Below are positions 61 through 9,930 of a stretch of 64,000 nucleotides of DNA, one piece after another (position 1 is the first letter of the stretch; the number at the start of each line of letters is the position of its first letter). Both the position numbers and the translations under genes were made by a program. The stretch covers positions 62,001-126,000 of the forward strand of contig JBBPIG010000002.1 in NCBI GenBank assembly GCA_038040445.1, given 5' to 3'. Under the pieces are notes generated by a model. That model did no database searches and was not told the DNA's origin. It was given only the letters and a program-made list of their open reading frames with translations. This stretch comes from Acidobacteriota bacterium (GTDB lineage: Bacteria; Acidobacteriota; Blastocatellia; UBA7656).

Positions 61-3000
61 CTACGGCGCTCGAATTGCCGCAATTGTTCCCCGCCCACCT
101 GTCCGGCGAGACTTTCGATCCATCGTCGCCGTCTTTCCCGCGGCTGAAGCGGGAGCCGTGCTCGGAGCACCGCCACCAGTGCCAAGCCGTTTCTGTTCCT
201 CGGGTGAAATCTGGAACATATATCTTACAAGCAGATCGACGTGATCCTTCTCATAGGTCTCGAATGACGGCGGAGTCGGACCGTTGAACACCCATCGATC
301 GTGAGACTGGTCGCGTTTGAACAGCTCCGAAGGCATCGAAGTGCCCGGGCTGATCAACTGCGGATCAAGCAGCCACCGTCGAGTCCAGGCTGGCTTCAAT
401 CGTTCGGGTGCGACCAGGAAGTTTGGCGCAGTCGCTCGCGCGTCGTGCGCGGGATCGCCGGTCATGTGGCACTTCAAGCAAGGCGCGGCATTCGAGCTGA
501 ACAGCGCGCGAGCCATGCCCTGCTCTTCGGTCGCCAGTGGATCGAGCCGCTCGGGTATGTACGGTTGAGCTTGAGACGAGGCGCCCATGAAGAAGTTCAC
601 CAGCGCTTGCAGCTCGTTGGGCGAGAAGTTGAACGTCGGCATGCGCGCCATCAGATATCGCCTCACGCCGTTGCGATTCAAACCAGGTTGGGCGCGCAGC
701 GCGAGGCTCTCGCTCCAATCGTCGCCTCCGCTTTGCGAGTGACCGGCAATGGCTTGCGCCAGCGACGCTCGCTCGGAGGGCGCAACTTGCGAGGGGTCCT
801 TCAAGAAGCGCAGCAGCCAGTCCGGATTGACCCGCGCGCCTTCGCTTGTGAGCCTGGGGGGTAACTGTTCCTTCCCGTCAGCGCTCTGATACATCGGCAG
901 TCCCATCAAGATCGAGTCCTGGCCCACCAACACGTTGTGACAACCCATACAGTTGTACTTCTGAACGATCCACCAGCCGTCCTGGACGGCTTTCTTCCCG
1001 CCGGCCGGGTTGTATCGCATAGATTCCGGGAGATTCGTTTCAACGCTGCCGAGCAGGAAAGTCGCGAGCGCGGTGACGTCGCTGTCGGGCAGGTAGATAT
1101 TCGGCATCCGCAAGCGCTCGTCGGGCGCTTTCGTCTTGCCTCGGTCGTAGATGTCCGGGCTTCGAAGCTTGTTTTCGAAGAAGCCCTTGTGGTCATACCA
1201 CGATTCCCTGCTTCGGCGTTTGATGTGCTCGCCGGTAATCGGATCCTTGCCCTGCATCGCAGGCTCTTGCAACAGAGCGAAGTCGAGCCGCTCGATCGGC
1301 TTGCTTCCTTCCAAGGTCAGCTCGGTTCCGATTCGCTGCTCATCTTCCATGCCCTTGATTTCGTGACACGCCGCGCATCCGTACCTTCGCACGAGCTGCT
1401 CGCCTTGCGACCTCAGCGAGGTATCGTCCAGGAACGAAGCGTTCTTATACTCGACACCAGGCCGCTTCTGCTGCATCAAGAACGTGGCGATGTCGCGAGC
1501 GTCCTGATCTGACAGCCGGAAGTTCGGCATCACCGTCATGTTCTGGATCTGAAGCTCACGCCCATCGACCGGGCTCTTGGAATGATCGTCGTCAAACACA
1601 AAAGGAAGGTTCTTCTTCTTATAGTCGGCCGGGGTAAGGTCACGCTTCAATGTGGGCGAGTAGGGCGCAAGCCGCTCACGCGGATTGTGCACCCAGCGGA
1701 CGATATAGTCGTAATTCGCTTTCTCACCCACGCGCGAGAGATTCGCGGCAAAGTCTCCGCCGATAATCTGATCACCCATGTCGATCGCCTGACCGTTGAT
1801 CGAATGGCAACCTAGACAACCCAGCGTCTTGACCAACTCCTTGCCGTGAGCCGCGTCGCCTTGCGCTTGAGAAGGCAACTTCACATCGATCGCGGATTGC
1901 CAGAGAAAAGCAGAAACGGCTTCGATCTCTTCGTTCTTGAGGAAGCGGAAGGTCGGCATCTTCGTTCCGGGCCGGAATGCCTGCGGATCCGCGAGCCAAA
2001 CCGGGATCCAGTCCTTGCGCAGCTTGGCCTTGATTTCTTTCAGGTTCGGCCCGATCTTCTTCACGTCCTGCATCAGGTACTTGGCTTGAATATCGAACTC
2101 GTCGATTCGCGCGTCCACATGTGAAATCATCTGACGAAGCGCTTCGGCCTTTTTTCGAAGCAGTGCGGCTTCTTCGTCGGTGGATGCCCCGTCAGCCGCG
2201 GCGTTCGTCTGCGCGATCTCGCGTCTTCGATTATCGCGCTCGAGGTCCAGAGTCTTGATGCTTTGACGAGCGTTGCTGAGGGCATCGGCTTCCCGATCGA
2301 ACGCTTCGTAGCGATGGCACCCGGCACAGCCGCGAACTTGGAACAGGTCCTTGCCGCGATTCAGCACGTTCGCCCCCTGCAGCACGCGGTCGCGGTTATG
2401 GCATTGATTGCACCCAGCCTCCATGTTCTCCTTGTAGTACATCGGCCACAACCAATGTTTGTATCTGCCGTGACCTTTCTCGACCGAAGTCGTGCCGCGC
2501 CCGTTGCCGCCGTGACAGGTCGAGCAACCGAAGCGATCGGGATCGTGCGTCTTAAGCAGGTCCTTGTTTGGATGCGACACAAACGCCGCGGCAGCAGCGT
2601 CCTCGCTGGGGTCTTCCCCGGTCCAGCCCATATCCTTCCGGGTTAGCTTGATCGGTTCACGGACTCCGAGGTGGCAAGACTCGCACCGGTCGATCACTAC
2701 GCCGCCTACGTTGATCTGCTTGATCTCGAACTTAAAGTCTTCGACTTTTTTCTGCAGGCCGCCCACCTGCTGCGCGGTCAAGCCGGCGAGGTGGTCTAGC
2801 ATATACTCGTCGCGCTTCTTCTGAGCAGCGTCGCGAGGTTGAGTGATCTGAACGCGCTCAGCCCCAAGGCGGGCTTTCTCGTCCCTCAAGCTATTGTAAA
2901 GAGTCTCGAGCTCGGTGAAAGTTAGCGACTTCTCTTCCTCTTTGCCCTCATCGTTGGGCATGGTGAAGTCGATCTTTTCTTGCTTCTTTTTTTCTATTGC

Positions 3001-3477
3001 GGCGCGAAGGCTGTTCTTTCCGGACTCGCTCTCCGTCACTTCAAGCTCATAAGTCTTGGCGACGATCCAGGAGCGCGCGTCGGTGAAGGGCGCGGTTACC
3101 GCTGTAATCTTGTCGTCGAGTCTCTTGCCCTGCGCGTCGATGGGATCTGTCTTCGCCTTGGCGGCGGCGGCGGCTTCCTTATAGGCCGCGTCGAGTTCCT
3201 GATACTCGGGCGAGCTCGCAACTTCCTTTTCCGATCTGCCCTGCCGCTCCTTCGCTGTGTCCAGGAACTCCTCGTACTTTGAGACGAAATCCTTTTGATA
3301 GCTCCTCCATGGCCGCTGTCCGTAAACCTCGTCGTAAAGCGACCAGAGAAGCGTCACGACCAGCAAGAGCGAAGATATCAATAGAGCGCCACTCATCGAC
3401 TGGTCGGCAATCGGGTCGAGCTCAGGAGTTTCTGGGGCCCTCTTCTCTAACTGCTCGCTTTCAGTAGTGTCTGCCAT
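61..3477 (-). CDS. Membrane-anchored octahaem c-type cytochrome of a bc-type complex
   Basis: Probable electron-accepting cytochrome subunit of the quinol-oxidising bc complex encoded just upstream. The 1138-residue protein has one N-terminal transmembrane helix (about residues 28-48), then a long charged, coiled-coil-like stretch (about 55-250), then eight CXXCH haem-attachment motifs: CESCH (~263), CSTCH (~317), CNQCH (~354), CAGCH (~382), CLGCH (~552), CAACH (~699), CMGCH (~842) and CLKCH (~999). The topology puts the haems in the periplasm. The gene is last in the order Rieske, cytochrome b N-half, cytochrome b C-half, multihaem cytochrome, all on the minus strand with short gaps. It is far larger than a canonical cytochrome c1 or f and looks like several mono- and dihaem domains joined. 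The function is inferred from context; the haem motifs are read directly. Confidence 0.88.
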   Translation of the reverse strand: MADTTESEQLEKRAPETPELDPIADQSMSGALLISSLLLVVTLLWSLYDEVYGQRPWRSYQKDFVSKYEEFLDTAKERQGRSEKEVASSPEYQELDAAYKEAAAAAKAKTDPIDAQGKRLDDKITAVTAPFTDARSWIVAKTYELEVTESESGKNSLRAAIEKKKQEKIDFTMPNDEGKEEEKSLTFTELETLYNSLRDEKARLGAERVQITQPRDAAQKKRDEYMLDHLAGLTAQQVGGLQKKVEDFKFEIKQINVGGVVIDRCESCHLGVREPIKLTRKDMGWTGEDPSEDAAAAAFVSHPNKDLLKTHDPDRFGCSTCHGGNGRGTTSVEKGHGRYKHWLWPMYYKENMEAGCNQCHNRDRVLQGANVLNRGKDLFQVRGCAGCHRYEAFDREADALSNARQSIKTLDLERDNRRREIAQTNAAADGASTDEEAALLRKKAEALRQMISHVDARIDEFDIQAKYLMQDVKKIGPNLKEIKAKLRKDWIPVWLADPQAFRPGTKMPTFRFLKNEEIEAVSAFLWQSAIDVKLPSQAQGDAAHGKELVKTLGCLGCHSINGQAIDMGDQIIGGDFAANLSRVGEKANYDYIVRWVHNPRERLAPYSPTLKRDLTPADYKKKNLPFVFDDDHSKSPVDGRELQIQNMTVMPNFRLSDQDARDIATFLMQQKRPGVEYKNASFLDDTSLRSQGEQLVRRYGCAACHEIKGMEDEQRIGTELTLEGSKPIERLDFALLQEPAMQGKDPITGEHIKRRSRESWYDHKGFFENKLRSPDIYDRGKTKAPDERLRMPNIYLPDSDVTALATFLLGSVETNLPESMRYNPAGGKKAVQDGWWIVQKYNCMGCHNVLVGQDSILMGLPMYQSADGKEQLPPRLTSEGARVNPDWLLRFLKDPSQVAPSERASLAQAIAGHSQSGGDDWSESLALRAQPGLNRNGVRRYLMARMPTFNFSPNELQALVNFFMGASSQAQPYIPERLDPLATEEQGMARALFSSNAAPCLKCHMTGDPAHDARATAPNFLVAPERLKPAWTRRWLLDPQLISPGTSMPSELFKRDQSHDRWVFNGPTPPSFETYEKDHVDLLVRYMFQISPEEQKRLGTGGGAPSTAPASAAGKTATMDRKSRRTGGRGTIAAIRAP

Positions 3478-3482
3478 CTTAG

Positions 3483-3532
3483 AGTCCTGTCCCTATAGCT
3501 CGTATTGGTCCTATAGGTCGTATCGCTCCTAT
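3483..3532. repeat. Short imperfect tandem repeat between bc-complex genes
   Basis: About two and a half copies of an 18-base unit of the form CCTATAG-n-TCGTAT-nnnn fill the gap between the subunit IV-like gene and the multihaem cytochrome gene. No clear promoter or terminator is visible, so the operon probably reads through. Confidence 0.5.
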
Positions 3533-4464
3533 ATATTGAACCACGGCGTAACCATCACGTACTTGATCCGGAATACTTGCCTTATCAAAAGCTTCACCGG
3601 CATGCTCACCAGCACTGTTATTGCGAAGAATTGAAAGATCGAGTACTGCAATAACGTCGTTCGCTCGAAGATTTTCTTTTCGAACTTACTCCACGTGATG
3701 ATGATGTGAATCAGCAGCCCGGCGATCAAGTAAAAAGCTCCTATCACGAGCAAGCCGAAAATCCCCTTCCAGGGTTGCGACGTAACCCCGAAAATGTCAG
3801 GAAGGTCGCGGTTGATCTCATAGAGCTGAACGTTGTGGTCCCACGTTTGACCCGGCCAGAACCATACCCAACCCGGACCTCGAATGAACGTCCCGATGAA
3901 GATCAGCATGATCCACATGATAAAGCCCCACAAGAACGCGCCGATGGCGACCTTGCGCTGCCTCCAGGTGTAATAGCCGACGCCCAGCGGATTCGAGTCG
4001 AGGTATGGGAACGCCATCAACCCGACGATCATCAAGCTAGGCATCACCACACCGGCGATCCACGGATCGAAATAAACCAGCATCTCCTGCAGCCCTAGAA
4101 AGTACCAGGGCGCCTTCGACGGGTTCATCGTCAGGTTGGGGTTCGCTGGTTCCTCGAGCGGCGCGTTGAGAGTAATCGACCAGACGAAGAGGACAACTGT
4201 GACAATGAGGACGGCCAGGAACTCGATCCTCAGCAGGTAAGGCCATACGTGCAACTCACGTGACCAGTGCGGCTTCCACGGCCACGTCTTGCGATGATGC
4301 GTTTTGGCAAGCTTGGGATCGGCTTCTAGTTGCTCCGCAAGCCGGTCATTCGCCCGCGCCTGGCTAAGGCCCATCCACATGAAGAATGGAACCAGGAACA
4401 ACATTGCCACAATTGGCACGTTGTCAGGCGCCGACACGATAGTCCAGAGTTGTGCCCAATCCAT
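3529..4464 (-). CDS. Cytochrome b C-terminal half (subunit IV-like) of bc complex
   Basis: Membrane subunit that completes the quinol-oxidation (Qo) site of a bc complex with split cytochrome b. The 311-residue protein opens with a hydrophobic segment and carries the Qo-loop region near residues 105-130, reading KAPWYFLGLQEML. The position that is PEWY in many cytochromes b reads APWY here, so the usual glutamate is replaced by proline. Several further hydrophobic helices follow (near 155-175, 180-205 and 240-290). It lies 51 bp upstream of the multihaem cytochrome and 79 bp downstream of the cytochrome b N-half, in the same operon. A split cytochrome b is the b6/subunit IV arrangement, also common in menaquinol-oxidising complexes. 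The family call is firm; the quinone type is not shown by the sequence. Confidence 0.9.
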   Translation of the reverse strand: MDWAQLWTIVSAPDNVPIVAMLFLVPFFMWMGLSQARANDRLAEQLEADPKLAKTHHRKTWPWKPHWSRELHVWPYLLRIEFLAVLIVTVVLFVWSITLNAPLEEPANPNLTMNPSKAPWYFLGLQEMLVYFDPWIAGVVMPSLMIVGLMAFPYLDSNPLGVGYYTWRQRKVAIGAFLWGFIMWIMLIFIGTFIRGPGWVWFWPGQTWDHNVQLYEINRDLPDIFGVTSQPWKGIFGLLVIGAFYLIAGLLIHIIITWSKFEKKIFERTTLLQYSIFQFFAITVLVSMPVKLLIRQVFRIKYVMVTPWFNI

Positions 4465-4476
4465 TAAGCCTCCGGC

Positions 4477-4540
4477 GGTTTCGGGTTCAGAGTTCCTGGT
4501 TCAGGGTTAACCCGGAACCACGAACCCCGAACCCTAAACC
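4477..4540. repeat. Heptad-unit hairpin between the two cytochrome b genes
   Basis: Two contiguous 32-base arms (4477-4508 and 4509-4540) form an imperfect inverted repeat centred on GGGTTAACCC; about 27 of 32 positions pair. Each arm has a 7-base rhythm: GGTTCAG/AGTTCCT on the left and xxxGAAC repeated on the right. It belongs to the same architectural class as the hairpins near 15788, 31662, 33598, 41881, 44918 and 52911. In the operon transcript it would fold between petB-like and petD-like coding regions and could affect their relative expression. Confidence 0.75.
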
Positions 4541-4543
4541 GAT

Positions 4544-5515
4544 TCATCCCACTTGTTTCTTCACCGCCCTCGCTCCGGGCGCCTTCATCTCTGACTCAAG
4601 CTGAACAGGCGCGGGGCCCGATATGCCGCCATCCTTGCGCACTCGCCAGAAGTGTACGGCCATCAGGACGCTGGCGATAACCGGGATCGCTATGCAGTGC
4701 CAGATGTAGCTCCGAAGCAACGCGTTCGCATCGACGATGGATCCGCCCAGCAGCGCGAACCGCACGTCGTTGTACAGCGACATTCCCATCTGCGGGCCGA
4801 ACGGCCCTTCGGCTCCGAGGCCCGGAGTCGCGCGAGCCATGTTCGTCCCCACCGTCACCGCCCAGAACCCAAGCTGATCATCGGGCAACAAGTAGCCGGT
4901 GAAGCTCAGCAGCAGCGTCAGCACTAACAGCACAACGCCAACCGACCAGTTGAACTCACGCGGCGTTTTGTACGAGCCCGTAAGCACCACGCGAAGCATG
5001 TGCAGCCAGGTCGTTATCACCATCAAATGCGCCGCCCATCGGTGCATGTTGCGAAGCAGTTTGCCGAACGGCACATCGTTCTCGAGATACAGGATGTCTT
5101 GAAAAGCCTGCCCCTTCGACGGGTGGTAATAGAACATCAACAGGATGCCGGTGAAGGTGAGCACGATGAAAAGATAGAAGGTGATGCCGCCCATCCCCCA
5201 TGTGTAGCTGAAGCGCACCGCGTCGCGATTGATCTTGGCCGGGTGCAGATGCAAGAAAACGTTTGTCAGCACGCCCAGCGACCGCGATCGCGGCGTCGGC
5301 TCGTGCTTGACCCGAAACATCGATTTGTAGATCTGAGTCTTTGTCGGGTCCTTGAGGTCGTCGAGCTCTTGAAGAACAGAGTCCTTCTGAATCTTCTTCT
5401 TCAGAAGTTCGATCTCTTCTTTGACGTTTTCTTTGACGCTCGGCGGGGCTTCCTCTGCGACAGTCACAGCCGCGCCGGTCTTCACTTCGGGTTTGTCAGG
5501 CTTCTCAGGTTCCAT
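4544..5515 (-). CDS. Cytochrome b N-terminal half (b6-like) of bc complex
   Basis: Four-helix dihaem cytochrome b core that binds haems bL and bH and passes electrons across the membrane. The 323-residue protein has a charged, probably cytoplasmic N-terminal extension of about 70 residues before the membrane core. The histidine pairs are visible: HRWAAHLMVITTWLH (ligands 14 apart) and IWHC...AVHFWRVRKDGG (ligands 15 apart). The second spacing is that of cytochrome b6 rather than mitochondrial cytochrome b. It ends with the RKDGGISGP segment typical of split cytochromes b. It lies between the Rieske gene (78 bp upstream) and the subunit IV-like gene. The N-terminal extension, rich in Glu and Lys, is unusual. 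Confidence 0.93.
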   Translation of the reverse strand: MEPEKPDKPEVKTGAAVTVAEEAPPSVKENVKEEIELLKKKIQKDSVLQELDDLKDPTKTQIYKSMFRVKHEPTPRSRSLGVLTNVFLHLHPAKINRDAVRFSYTWGMGGITFYLFIVLTFTGILLMFYYHPSKGQAFQDILYLENDVPFGKLLRNMHRWAAHLMVITTWLHMLRVVLTGSYKTPREFNWSVGVVLLVLTLLLSFTGYLLPDDQLGFWAVTVGTNMARATPGLGAEGPFGPQMGMSLYNDVRFALLGGSIVDANALLRSYIWHCIAIPVIASVLMAVHFWRVRKDGGISGPAPVQLESEMKAPGARAVKKQVG

Positions 5516-5593
5516 TACTAAGCTCCGCGGTGGATTGTGCTAGAGAGCGAAGACTTGCAACACAGGACGTTCGAATCAAAACAGCGAATCGGT

Positions 5594-6274
5594 TTACACC
5601 TGTATGAACGCGCCCGGCTCGTCGAAGTGGCCCGGCGCCACGTCGCCCTTCGGCCACTCATACAATTTAGCGGTGTTGACTACGATTTGCCCCGTCGGAT
5701 CAAGCTCTACGTGAGCGCGATCCATCGGACGCGGCGCGGGTCCTTCGAAGTTGATACCTTCGCTGGTATATCCGCTTCCGTGGCACGGGCATTTGAACTT
5801 GTTCTCGCCGGGCTTCCAGTCGGGCGTGCACCCAAGGTGAGTGCATCGGGCGTAAATCACAAACAACCTTTCGGCGTTGCGAACGACCCAGACGCGGTAT
5901 TGCTGTTGGAATTTCGTGTCGACCCCGAATCCAAAATCGGTCGGGTATCCGACTCTGAATACGGTGCTGGGTTCGAAGATGGTACGCGGAAGGAAGAAGC
6001 GCAGGAACATCAGAAAATTAACCGCAAGGGAGGCGCCGACTGCGGTCCATATGAACCGGCGGCGCATCTTGTTGACTGGGTCGGGTGGCGCGCTTTCTAC
6101 AGTCTTGCTCTTAGCCCCTGCCGAAGTGCCGACTGCCGGCTTAGCGGCGGCTTTAGGTTTGTCTGCTGATGCTGACGCTTTCGGCGCCGGTGGTGTAGCT
6201 TTCTCTGCCGTTGCGGTTACTGTCTGCTTGTCCTCGCCCTCAACCTTCTGGTTCGCATCCTGAACGGTGTCCAT
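5594..6274 (-). CDS. Rieske iron-sulfur protein of bc complex
   Basis: Carries the [2Fe-2S] cluster that takes the first electron from quinol. Both cluster-binding boxes are present: CTHLGC and CPCHGSGY, which include the disulfide cysteines. A transmembrane anchor (RRRFIWTAVGASLAVNFLMF) precedes the soluble domain, and a long Ala/Pro/Lys-rich N-terminal linker lies before it. The reading frame is open back to a TTG at 6334, but an ATG at 6274 has GGAG about 9 bases upstream, so 6274 is chosen (226 residues); ATG codons at 6304 and 6301 are alternatives. It is the first gene of the four-gene bc operon. There is no twin-arginine pair in the usual context, though RRRF precedes the helix and could serve for Tat targeting. 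Confidence 0.92.
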   Translation of the reverse strand: MDTVQDANQKVEGEDKQTVTATAEKATPPAPKASASADKPKAAAKPAVGTSAGAKSKTVESAPPDPVNKMRRRFIWTAVGASLAVNFLMFLRFFLPRTIFEPSTVFRVGYPTDFGFGVDTKFQQQYRVWVVRNAERLFVIYARCTHLGCTPDWKPGENKFKCPCHGSGYTSEGINFEGPAPRPMDRAHVELDPTGQIVVNTAKLYEWPKGDVAPGHFDEPGAFIQV

Positions 6275-6502
6275 GCTGGAGGTCTCCACGATTCCGTCCA
6301 TCATTAGAGAGACGATTAGTACGACGTGTTCCAACGAGTGCGCCAGACGCGCCTCGCCGACATATACTGTATGAATTCTGCTGAACGTTTCTCATCGAGC
6401 CTGAACTTTACAACCGGACTGCTTTATTATGAAGTGATCGGGTTTTAGCATGTCGCCGCAAAGTTTGTCAAGCAAAGCCACTGAAGAGCGCGGGTCTGGT
6501 TT

Positions 6503-6817: not shown

Positions 6818-7747
6818 TTAGCGCAGCGATCCATCTGAAACTTGCTTTGGTTTCAAACTCTCTATGAAGTCCTGATCTCTCGTACCCTGATGGCACACTA
6901 TGCAAGACTGCTGGCCGCGTTCTTCCAGGTCAGATACCAGCGCATAGGTCAGCCCTCGATCTGACCAGGTGATGACCTTCAATCCCTGAATCGAGTCGAA
7001 ATGGAACGTCAGGCCTTTGGAGACTATCTCTTCGCCCCCCGAGGGCCGGGCGACCGCCTCTGACGTCACTACCAGGCTGATCGGCCGCAACCGCATCTTA
7101 TAAGCAACGTAGGCTGCATAGTCATTCTTATATCCAACCAACCGCGCCCCTTCGAGGTCGTAGAGCTTCTCCTGCCCCGACGATTCCTGATAGTTCGGCA
7201 GCTTCACGCTAAAAGGGACCTTTCCTGCGAACCACGCTGAGATTCGCTCGGGCACGGCGGATGCAATCTCGAGCGGAAGCTGACTTCGCAGATGTCGCTG
7301 ATGAGTGTCTACTGCCATCAACGCAAAGTCGGACGGAGGATTGGGGCGTTGCTTCCGGTACTCAGTTACACCCCAGATGCCAATCAGCAACGCTACAGCG
7401 GCCACTGCCGCCAAAGCCGCAACACGGCGAGAGTGAATAAGCCCGGAAGCGGTAGTAGCACCTGGCCAGAGAGACCAGCGTATGCGATGACGCAATCGCT
7501 TCGAGGCTGCGTGGGGAGAAGGCGTATCCGCAAGCACCTGTTCGACCCTCGCCCGAAGCTCTAGAGGCGCGACATGAAGAGGCTGAGAAGCGCGGATGAC
7601 CTCGAGAAAGCGCTGCTCACCCTCGAATAGTCTCCGACAAGCCTCGCAGCCACGCAAATGGGTTTCGAGCGCGGCTCGTTCATTGCCTTGCAGTTCGTCG
7701 TCCAGATGGAAAGTCATCTGGGCACGGATTTCGTCACACTGATTCAT
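6818..7747 (-). CDS. Transmembrane anti-sigma factor with zinc finger and periplasmic CXXCH
   Basis: Probable membrane-bound inhibitor of the ECF sigma factor encoded 3 bp upstream. The N-terminal cytoplasmic part has the anti-sigma zinc-finger pattern HLRGCEAC (HxxxCxxC, about residues 30-37). One transmembrane helix follows (about 107-128), then a periplasmic domain of about 180 residues. Near the C-terminus (about 282-286) is CIVCH, a haem c attachment motif, placed in the compartment where c-type haem is attached. That makes a haem- or thiol-based sensor plausible. The protein is 309 residues; the sensor-domain family is not one I can name. The pairing with a dihaem peroxidase and matching promoters nearby supports a redox-stress role. 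The zinc finger and sigma linkage are read directly; haem binding is inferred. Confidence 0.85.
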   Translation of the reverse strand: MNQCDEIRAQMTFHLDDELQGNERAALETHLRGCEACRRLFEGEQRFLEVIRASQPLHVAPLELRARVEQVLADTPSPHAASKRLRHRIRWSLWPGATTASGLIHSRRVAALAAVAAVALLIGIWGVTEYRKQRPNPPSDFALMAVDTHQRHLRSQLPLEIASAVPERISAWFAGKVPFSVKLPNYQESSGQEKLYDLEGARLVGYKNDYAAYVAYKMRLRPISLVVTSEAVARPSGGEEIVSKGLTFHFDSIQGLKVITWSDRGLTYALVSDLEERGQQSCIVCHQGTRDQDFIESLKPKQVSDGSLR

Positions 7748-7750
7748 ACT

Positions 7751-8317
7751 CTAATTCGCTCGAGCTGATCTCGTCGCGGATGTTGTCCGCCAGTCGGCGA
7801 GCAATCGCCGGAGTTTTTCTCGCGCTCGCCCAAGCCGGGACATAACAGTGCCGGCAGGACATCCCAGTATGCTTGCAATCTGCTGGTAGCTGAATCCTTC
7901 GATGTCACGAAGCACGACGATCTCGCGTTGCGGCAACGGAAGGCTCTCAATCGCGGCTCTGACTTCCTCGCACTCCAGCTTTCTGAGATAGACCACGTGC
8001 GGGTCGTTGGCAACGTGGTCGAGCCATTGGGCGCGGCCGTCTTCTTCTGCATCAAGCTCTACAAATCGCGGCCCACCGCGCGTATGCCGAAGCTGGTTGA
8101 GCCAGGCGTTTCTCATTATGGCAAAGAGCCAGCTCTTGAGATTGCTGTCGGGCATCAGCCGGCCGAAAGCCCGAACGGCCCGCAGATATGTTTCTTGTAC
8201 AAGGTCCTCAGCCTCAGTCCGATTACGGGTCAATGCCATGGCAAACCCGTAGAGCGCATCGAGGTGCTCAAGGGCACCATTGGTAAACGTGGAGTTGCGA
8301 TGGCCGGCTTCGCTCAT
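7751..8317 (-). CDS. ECF-family RNA polymerase sigma factor
   Basis: Directs RNA polymerase to stress promoters. The 188-residue protein has region 2 (DALYGFAMALTRNRTEAEDLVQETYLRAVRAF, read in two parts) and region 4 (LPLPQREIVVLRDIEGFSYQQIASILG and GTVMSRLGRAREKLRR), and no region 1 or 3, as expected for group 4 sigma factors. It starts at the ATG at 8317, about 24 bases from a promoter-like GGAATA-N13-CGTGTTATT on the same strand. It is followed by its anti-sigma gene after 3 bp, so the two are cotranscribed. The matching promoter on the opposite strand points at the dihaem peroxidase gene as a target. Confidence 0.93.
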   Translation of the reverse strand: MSEAGHRNSTFTNGALEHLDALYGFAMALTRNRTEAEDLVQETYLRAVRAFGRLMPDSNLKSWLFAIMRNAWLNQLRHTRGGPRFVELDAEEDGRAQWLDHVANDPHVVYLRKLECEEVRAAIESLPLPQREIVVLRDIEGFSYQQIASILGCPAGTVMSRLGRAREKLRRLLADWRTTSATRSARAN

Positions 8318-8340
8318 TCAGTTCTCGATGACTTCCCTAA

Positions 8341-8369
8341 GAATAACACGCAACCGAGTAAAGTATTCC
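8341..8369 (-). promoter_or_regulatory. Putative ECF promoter of the sigma/anti-sigma operon
   Basis: Reading on the minus strand from 8369: GGAATA, 13 bases, then CGTGTTATTC ending at 8341, about 24 bases before the sigma start codon. The same two boxes with the same 13-base spacing occur on the plus strand at 8382-8410. Box composition and spacing fit ECF promoters, which use a GGAA-type -35 element. Autoregulation is the usual pattern for ECF operons. Confidence 0.65.
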
Positions 8370-8381
8370 TCTCACAGTCGC

Positions 8382-8410
8382 GGAATAAGATTGCTCCTCG
8401 CGTGTTATTG
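8382..8410 (+). promoter_or_regulatory. Putative ECF promoter of the dihaem peroxidase gene
   Basis: GGAATA (8382-8387), 13 bases, CGTGTTATTG (8401-8410). It matches the sigma operon promoter in both boxes and spacing while the spacer sequences differ. It would give a leader of about 130 bases that contains the hairpin at 8441-8503. Confidence 0.65.
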
Positions 8411-8440
8411 CTCATGCGCGGGCTTGCACCGCGAACGCGA

Positions 8441-8503
8441 ATGTACCGTAGACTGTCCGGCCTGCGGTTGTGCTGTCCGCAGACTGGACAGTCTACAGTA
8501 CAT
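8441..8503. repeat. Imperfect 27-bp inverted repeat in the peroxidase leader
   Basis: Arms 8441-8467 and 8477-8503 pair with three mismatches around a 9-base loop. Each arm contains GACTGTCC/GGACAGTC and ends in ATGTAC/GTACAT. It lies between the putative ECF promoter and the peroxidase start codon. It may be a dispersed palindromic repeat that has become a 5' UTR structure. Confidence 0.75.
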
Positions 8504-8544
8504 GTGACATCGATGATCACATCCTAACCAGGGAACGGAGGACT

Positions 8545-9930
8545 ATGACAACATCAAAACGAACCAAGATGCTCGTGACACTTGTCTTCATCGTAATGGG
8601 TGCTGCCGCGATCTACGTCAGTCCGCAAGCACGCGCACAGCAACAGCCGTCTTCCTTTGGAGGGGTGGTCGAGGAGCCCTTCGCCGTGGTGCTGAAACGC
8701 GACAAAGGGGCGAAGGCGCGGGTGATGGCCGAGCATCAAAAGCTGCTCGACGCGCGCTACGATCTGAGCCGCCGCGTCGACGCGAACGTGAAGATGACTC
8801 GCGGAAAGCAGATTCCGGTTGGCCCTACGGCGCGGCTCAAGGGCGTGACCTGGGAGCAACTCGGCAAAATGTCGCCCGACGAGATTAAAGAGAAGGGCGT
8901 GTTCCCTTACCTTCCTCTCCCGCATATCGCCCATCCGGTGGGCGGCATGGTCTTTCCGCAGGCGGAGGTCAAAGCACTGGCAAGGCTTGAACGATTTGAT
9001 ATGGATTTCGATCTGCCGGAGCACTTCTTACCCGAATTTCCACCGGCGATGTTCCTGATCACTCGGCCCGACCTTGGCGATGTATCCAAAGGTCAAACGG
9101 TAACGATCGACAACTTCTACGAGCTTTTCAACGGCATCCTCAATCCGAAACAGCTCGATGGGTTGCGTCTGCTTCTCACTCAGTTTCCCCAGCAGCAGTT
9201 CAACGCCACGGCGGATCGCAAGACCGAAAAGCCCGACGGCATGCGTGGCGTGACCTGCTTCGATTGTCACGTCAACGGACACACGTCAGGGGCGACGCAC
9301 CTTGCCGGCGACGTACGGCCGCAAGAGTTTCGCCGCCGGATCGAGACGCCTTCGCTGCGCGGCGTCAACATCCAGCGTTTGTTCGGATCGCAACGTGCCC
9401 TAAAAAGCGTGGAAGACTTCACTGAGTTCGAACAGCGCGCAGCCTACTTCGACGGCGACCCGGTGCTTGCGAGCAAAAAAGGATTGAGCATTTTGGAGCG
9501 TGGCTCGCAAGTTCACAACATGGCTGAATTTCAAGAGCTGCTCGATTTTCCGCCCGCGCCGAAGCTGAACCTGTTTGGCCGCCTCGACCGGACGAGGTCA
9601 ACCGAGAGCGAGATACGCGGCGAAGATCTGTTCTTCGGCAAAGCTCAATGCGCGGTCTGCCACACAGCGCCTTACTACACGGACAACCTGATGCACGATC
9701 TGAAGGTCGAGCGCTTTTTCAAGCCTCGGATGGAAGGCGGGATGATGATCACGGCTCAAGGTCCGATCAAGAACTTCCCGCTACGCGGCATCAAGGAATC
9801 GCCACCGTATCTGCACGACGGAAGGTTGCTAACATTGGAAGACACAGTCGAGTTTTTCAATCTGATTCTGCGACTTGATCTGGCGATGCAGGAGAAGAAG
9901 GATTTGGTTGCGTTCCTGCGGGCGTTGTAG
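8545..9930 (+). CDS. Dihaem cytochrome c peroxidase / MauG-family protein, exported
   Basis: Periplasmic dihaem protein of the bacterial cytochrome c peroxidase/MauG superfamily. It probably reduces peroxide with electrons from c-type cytochromes, or oxidises a protein or small-molecule partner. The ATG at 8545 follows GGAG and begins a signal peptide (MTTSKRTKMLVTLVFIVMG...ARA). The CXXCH motifs are CFDCH (~238) and CAVCH (~369), and the C-terminal signature FPLRGIKESPPYLHDGRLLTLEDT is split around the conserved YLHDGR. The mature part is about 430 residues, longer than classical CcpA because of an N-terminal extension of some 200 residues. It is divergent from the ECF sigma operon and has a matching promoter, so it is the best candidate for an ECF target. 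The exact substrate is unknown. Confidence 0.9.
   Translation: MTTSKRTKMLVTLVFIVMGAAAIYVSPQARAQQQPSSFGGVVEEPFAVVLKRDKGAKARVMAEHQKLLDARYDLSRRVDANVKMTRGKQIPVGPTARLKGVTWEQLGKMSPDEIKEKGVFPYLPLPHIAHPVGGMVFPQAEVKALARLERFDMDFDLPEHFLPEFPPAMFLITRPDLGDVSKGQTVTIDNFYELFNGILNPKQLDGLRLLLTQFPQQQFNATADRKTEKPDGMRGVTCFDCHVNGHTSGATHLAGDVRPQEFRRRIETPSLRGVNIQRLFGSQRALKSVEDFTEFEQRAAYFDGDPVLASKKGLSILERGSQVHNMAEFQELLDFPPAPKLNLFGRLDRTRSTESEIRGEDLFFGKAQCAVCHTAPYYTDNLMHDLKVERFFKPRMEGGMMITAQGPIKNFPLRGIKESPPYLHDGRLLTLEDTVEFFNLILRLDLAMQEKKDLVAFLRAL

Follow-up and report, generated by a model that had tools for sequence, protein, structure and literature searches.

The window analysed here, a stretch of 64,000 nucleotides from a soil bacterium of the Acidobacteriota (contig JBBPIG010000002.1, positions 62,001 to 126,000), carries an operon for an extracytoplasmic function (ECF) sigma factor and its membrane anti-sigma factor and, divergent from it, a gene for a secreted di-haem protein, with one of two matching promoter boxes directed to each side. 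Comparison with related loci shows the boxes, their linkage to this sigma factor and their repeated association with peroxidase-type genes. We read the locus, with a probability of roughly 0.75, as an autoregulated ECF sigma/anti-sigma system for periplasmic defence against peroxide or other oxidants, in which a haem-bearing anti-sigma factor would be the sensor; the signal and the step that releases the sigma factor are put forward more tentatively. The features on which the argument turns are the following.

6818 to 7747, minus strand: membrane anti-sigma factor, 309 aa, with a zinc-type domain, a transmembrane helix at about 104-133, a periplasmic RseB-like domain and CIVCH at 282-286
7751 to 8317, minus strand: ECF sigma factor, 188 aa (Sigma70 regions 2 and 4; best matches of SigH/SigR type; nearest solved relative Mycobacterium tuberculosis SigH)
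8342 to 8369, minus strand: promoter box towards the sigma/anti-sigma operon, GGAATACTTTACTCGGTTGCGTGTTATT (read from the sequence and by pattern search; kept in relatives)
8382 to 8409, plus strand: promoter box towards the di-haem gene, GGAATAAGATTGCTCCTCGCGTGTTATT (read from the sequence and by pattern search; kept in relatives)
8441 to 8503, plus strand: palindromic dispersed repeat that folds into a strong hairpin, within the predicted 5' leader of the di-haem gene (from folding and genome matches)
8545 to 9930, plus strand: secreted di-c-haem protein of the MauG/CCP superfamily, 461 aa, with CFDCH at 238-242 and CAVCH at 369-373

Divergent promoters and an exchangeable divergent gene

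An earlier model-made reading of the sequence (the first-pass annotation) had pointed to a GGAATA-N13 box on both strands of one intergenic region, with spacers alike in length and different in sequence, and a pattern search of the whole 64-kb window bears this out: it returned two perfect GGAATA-N13-CGTGTT sites and none further (8369-8345, minus; 8382-8406, plus), both of which extend, divergently, to GGAATA-N13-CGTGTTATT (8369-8342, minus; 8382-8409, plus) across spacers of 13 bases each and of unlike sequence. The coordinates proposed for them earlier, 8369-8341 and 8382-8410, were right at the inner ends and one base too wide at the outer ones. Between the minus-strand box and the sigma start codon (8317) lie 24 nt, and between the plus-strand box and the ATG of the di-haem gene at 8545, which is served by a plausible ribosome-binding site, lie 135 nt; when the 300 nt upstream of the sigma gene were shuffled with dinucleotides preserved, each box reappeared in 0/1000 cases. 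Both boxes can also be read as GGAAT-N17-GTT, a spacing that falls inside the motif range reported for SigR, GGAAT-N16-19-GTT (PMC2375139). The sigma factor itself has regions 2 and 4 only, an adjoining anti-sigma gene and, ahead of its operon, a conserved bipartite promoter, which place it among ECF sigma factors; a profile search against the Protein Data Bank (PDB) matched it to SigH (5zx2) with an E-value of 2e-40, and a score of 135.6 bits against the SigR/SigH subfamily model TIGR02947, below the curated cut-off of 251.6, makes it a relative of that subfamily and not a member. Throughout its own genome (6.75 Mb), a search with spacers of 11-15 bases gave five matches, namely the two window boxes and three sites within reading frames; a wider regulon in this genome was rejected on that ground, in a search that sites with a changed -10 could escape. 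The closed circuit suggested in the first-pass annotation, with the sigma factor driving itself and the di-haem gene, fits this genome, where a third credible site was not found.

Searching genome contigs with the anti-sigma factor gave 17 loci. In the Acidobacteriota loci L037-L047, sigma and anti-sigma genes stand together, each pair with a recognisable box upstream of the sigma gene (with a 14-base spacer in L041 and, at its weakest, four mismatches in L045), and the sigma-promoter box of these loci and of the window recurs in L083-L089 and, with a variant -10, in L090-L094; Myxococcales and Gemmatimonadota homologues (L049-L053) have neither the box nor CxxCH. Conservation of both boxes in orthologues, which had been proposed as a check, is found in L037, L039 and L043, that is, in all relatives found with the sigma factor, the anti-sigma factor and the same di-haem gene. 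Shuffles of each 300-nt upstream region reproduced the sense and divergent boxes in 0/1000 cases for the window, L037, L038, L083, L085, L086 and L088 (in L037 the best sense match scored was the divergent box read in reverse, its own sense box also having two mismatches), and the values for diverged loci were weaker and mostly significant.

The gene opposite the sigma operon changes and the boxes stay, a second, divergent box being found wherever a peroxidase-type gene is divergent. That gene encodes the window-type di-haem protein in L037, L039 and L043; a CCP_MauG protein in L038, L040/L083, L086, L087, L092, L093 and L094 (the box pair being kept in L038, L083, L086 and L087, and changed at the -10 in L092-L094); and a catalase-peroxidase (KatG) in L044/L085 and L088 (with the pair kept in L085 and L088), where both KatGs start with a signal-peptide-like sequence and appear to be secreted. 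KatG and CCP have no common fold, so the common factor would be peroxide outside the cytoplasm. Boxes are also met at peroxidase-type genes elsewhere in the genome: G013 has an esterase gene beside sigma and, on another contig, a CCP_MauG gene with GGAATAAACCGCCGGGTCGCGTGTTCTT upstream, while G014 and G018 have a single box at the sigma locus and a box with a variant -10 at their closest CCP gene elsewhere. Among 31 CCPs compared (30 from these genomes, plus that of L038), 10/10 members of one clade (support 91/95) have a box and 0/21 of the others do, the best match there having at least five mismatches; the box of L124 has five mismatches as well and was accepted on its position and intact GGAATAA, and only three of the ten are independent of sigma, because seven are divergent from it and share its region. 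Since all ten CCPs of this clade are boxed and none of the 21 paralogues, the boxes, kept in relatives and at CCP orthologues elsewhere, are well supported as ECF promoters of SigR/SigH type, in line with the shared sigma recognition sites originally supposed, and the comparison argues strongly that the sigma factor itself reads both and would thus activate its own operon and the peroxidase-type gene. Di-haem homologues with no adjoining sigma gene (L101, L102, L103) lack the box.

For the divergent protein of the window, the first-pass label of dihaem peroxidase needs one correction: it is a divergent MauG/CCP member that Pfam CCP_MauG (PF03150), a model matching the equivalent gene in L038, L040 and L132 at about 1e-58, does not match, and it is not counted in that family. 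Only its C-terminal part, which resembles MauG, MbnH and di-haem peroxidases, finds a match (MauG model, E 5e-10, far under the model cut-off). Both CxxCH motifs are invariant, and a Phe occupies, in a weak alignment, the Met/Tyr position of the distal ligand of the C-terminal haem; this residue, F438 (window 9856-9858), stands where 1iqc has Met and MbnH Tyr, the supposed distal haem ligand, and every full-length protein of this type has Phe there. Because F438 aligns with those residues, haem ligation should differ, which suggests an unusual ligation in the window protein; its predicted structure is unusable (pLDDT, the predicted local distance difference test, of 41, from seven sequences). 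The protein might instead act in electron transfer or as a maturation enzyme like MauG, in a circuit answering a respiratory or haem signal and not peroxide, as the confinement of the superfamily match to the C-terminal part, the Phe at 438 and the adjoining bc-complex genes would allow. We consider this unlikely, since relatives fill the same promoter position with CCP_MauG or with KatG, whose fold is unrelated and which has only peroxide turnover in common with CCPs.

Some observations concern the surroundings of the divergent gene. About 5 nt separate the end of the -10 box from the di-haem start codon in L039 (1286-1280) and L043 (3359-3353), and transcripts of the gene may be leaderless there; because the distance from box to start is so short in these two loci, the window leader may have been lengthened by the repeat element at 8441-8503, a palindrome of about 60 nt (hairpin z -4.6; 30 matches in its own genome, about four places near full length) that is probably an insertion. 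Rfam returned sub-threshold microRNA matches only for this hairpin, attributable to chance. Behind the divergent CCP gene of L038 (121-1993) and L040 (29-1937) follow genes for a metallophosphatase whose N-terminus looks Tat-like and for a cytochrome of SoxA/TsdA type, possibly as one operon under the box. Adjoining the sigma locus, window positions 61-6334 hold bc-complex genes (Rieske protein, cytochrome b, a further membrane subunit) and a gene for a 1138-aa protein with many CxxCH motifs. PADLOC gave zero matches.

The anti-sigma factor and a candidate haem site

A membrane anti-sigma factor with a periplasmic haem-attachment motif had been proposed at the outset, and the gene calls hold. 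The coding sequence starts 3 bases after the sigma stop codon; its N-terminal domain gives zf-HC2 and RsrA-like matches, one transmembrane helix is predicted (104-133), and sequence and predicted topology place CIVCH at 282-286 in the periplasm, within a domain of about residues 135-309, on a protein that crosses the membrane once. CxxCH is found in every intact anti-sigma factor of the clade, including those of L095-L098, whose promoters differ, and is absent from the outgroup anti-sigma factors of L049-L051 and L099 and from the second anti-sigma factor of L100. Two histidines, H149 and the one in an FH motif, H249, do not vary across 12 sequences; at the latter position L096 has Tyr, and in L097 the motif reads LH instead of FH. 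H249 is a candidate second axial haem ligand. The predicted model has a mean pLDDT of 78, with values above 85 across most of the periplasmic domain, whose leading structural matches are the C-terminal domains of RseB/MucB (Z 7.8, root-mean-square deviation 2.9 Å, 92 residues). The organism's own genome has genes for the assembly of c-type cytochromes, and the anti-sigma CxxCH probably carries one c-type haem, a proposal that we hold with moderate confidence. A haem c sensor on the anti-sigma factor is our best reading because of the conservation of CxxCH and FH, the RseB-like model and the cytochrome c assembly genes, and by analogy with CxxCH-bearing Cache domains; that CxxCH is invariant with this sigma type and missing from outgroups makes a haem or redox signal a plausible input.

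The mechanism proposed runs as follows. A sigma factor of SigR/SigH type would recognise GGAATA-N13-CGTGTTATT and drive its own operon and the divergent periplasmic peroxidase-type gene, and the anti-sigma factor would sequester it at the membrane through the cytoplasmic zinc-type domain. An oxidant, most likely H2O2, would act at the haem near the end of the periplasmic RseB-like domain, with haem redox state or nitric oxide (NO) as possible signals instead; the periplasmic domain would then change, and the sigma factor would be released by conformational change or proteolysis. In general terms, we lean towards a class of anti-sigma factors with an RseB-like periplasmic domain and a covalent c-type haem, whose redox or ligand state (peroxide, NO, oxygen) would directly drive sigma release, with interchangeable peroxidases as output. 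A literature search for haem-bearing or c-haem anti-sigma factors found no description, over mostly openly readable papers that did not include the large ECF reclassification, so that absence is unproven; the paper that classifies class I anti-sigma factors uses neither 'heme' nor 'cytochrome' in its main text.

The circuit could be real and the sensing cytoplasmic, with oxidation of the zinc site H-x3-C-x2-C releasing the sigma factor, as in RslA and RsrA, and with CxxCH in a structural or other role, an account that is the main alternative and that we rate as unlikely. The anti-sigma factor does contain this ZAS-domain motif, within the region that gives the zf-HC2 and RsrA-like matches, and its ligands H30, C34 and C37 are also invariant in 12 sequences, so sensing could sit there; a precedent exists in RslA, a membrane anti-sigma factor of M. 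tuberculosis that is redox-sensitive through CxxC (PMC2877774). Speaking for the haem site instead, L045 and L047 lack the fourth of the N-terminal cysteines, and outgroup anti-sigma factors devoid of CxxCH have the same zinc motif, so that what distinguishes the clade is CxxCH together with the FH histidine.

The conservation of the zinc ligands is one of several points that weigh against peroxide defence through a haem-bearing anti-sigma factor. The anti-sigma model falls under a pLDDT of 50 from residue 285 on, around CxxCH itself; the RseB-like fold match is weak, as a Z under 8 can reflect a common arrangement, and is therefore a lead; and Foldseek found no match to the model at E 0.001. 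At four loci with a CxxCH-bearing anti-sigma factor (L095-L098) no box can be recognised ahead of the paired sigma gene, Edaphobacter relatives have a single box, other targets and no divergent peroxidase, and the divergent gene encodes a GSDH-family protein in L041 and an esterase in L084/L042. The window enzyme, finally, is no more than a candidate peroxidase.

Distribution of the boxes across genomes

A survey of the phylum (396 genomes) found the anti-sigma factor in 19 and the exact 15-base box at ten sites, seven of them near sigma and three within unrelated reading frames; one of the seven, though part of the same Edaphobacter-type cluster as the anti-sigma match, is about 2.6 kb away from it, and the rest are at the sigma locus. 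With one mismatch allowed, 18 sigma-bearing genomes yielded 18 matches, against 2 for the reversed pattern. These genome counts are the independent test, the logo of 35 aligned boxes (on average 1.91 bits per position for the -35, 0.43 for the spacer and 1.19 for the -10) being only descriptive because its boxes were picked with the consensus in mind. Matches of the form TGAATAATTCCGT...CGTGTTATT in G011 were left out of the regulon, as they have a common spacer sequence and look like a different element.

In the Edaphobacter-type loci L080 (L089) and L048, extra boxes near sigma lie upstream of genes for a cupin, a DUF3455 secreted protein and a glycosyltransferase-like protein, hinting at a wider regulon in such relatives. 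A cultured relative, Edaphobacter lichenicola X5P2, also has the sigma/anti-sigma pair. In L048 (3440-4881), from an Edaphobacter metagenome-assembled genome, the sigma and anti-sigma genes are frame-broken and the surrounding boxes remain, through either decay or assembly error.

Since the two boxes face each other as a large inverted repeat between divergent genes, they might be taken for operators of a separate dimeric regulator and not for sigma promoters. Yet single boxes occur in L084, L110, L122, L123, L045-L047 and L089, always directed towards a gene and mostly tens of bases upstream of it, the spacing between paired boxes varies, the bipartite sequence matches an ECF -35/-10, and exact boxes track sigma across the 396 genomes, all of which leaves the operator account with very little probability. 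Chance resemblance, a fair concern for a motif chosen by eye in one sequence, is ruled out by recurrence in more than 10 genera and by the 0/1000 shuffles for both window boxes.

Related systems and significance

By profile, promoter range and zinc-type anti-sigma domain, the nearest sigma family is that of SigR-RsrA of Streptomyces coelicolor and SigH of M. tuberculosis. RsrA is soluble and cytoplasmic, whereas the anti-sigma factor here would span the membrane and carry a periplasmic domain with CxxCH, and the targets would be periplasmic peroxidase-type enzymes. That domain is structurally nearest, in a weak match, to the RseB/MucB C-terminal domain of the RseA/RseB and MucA/MucB systems; RseB is a separate protein that senses lipid or lipopolysaccharide, and here the RseB-like domain would be fused to the anti-sigma factor and bear the CxxCH. 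SigL-RslA of M. tuberculosis likewise combines a membrane anti-sigma factor with a cytoplasmic, redox-sensitive zinc-type domain, but the accessible part of the source mentions no haem motif in RslA (PMC2877774). The BcrS-AbcS pair of Brucella, considered here together with systems of SigF-NrsF type, also switches on its own genes and a neighbouring operon to counter an oxidant, but answers hypochlorous acid and drives methionine sulfoxide repair, with no CxxCH-bearing anti-sigma factor described in the portion of the paper available (PMC8315932). Extracytoplasmic sensors with an acquired CxxCH are represented by the sCache_heme proteins, Cache domains that gained the motif (PMC12889525), and by the periplasmic c-haem sensor domains of GSU0582 and GSU0935 (PMC3460858); these are of Cache fold and fused to chemoreceptors, kinases and cyclases, and the sCache_heme paper makes no mention of anti-sigma factors (PMC12889525).

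ECF systems are a major mode of bacterial signalling, and the inputs of most are unknown. For the system described here, comparative genomics fixes the output as a circuit of two promoters in which the periplasmic peroxidase-type enzyme can be replaced, and there is a candidate input, a haem on the anti-sigma factor. The system also provides a compact pair of sigma factor and promoter from the Acidobacteriota, a phylum whose regulation is little known. The parts are each of known kinds; what is new is that an ECF/anti-sigma pair combines a probable haem sensor with peroxidase-type outputs that can stand in for one another, which raises the question of whether a c-type haem on an anti-sigma factor may sense oxidant outside the cytoplasm.

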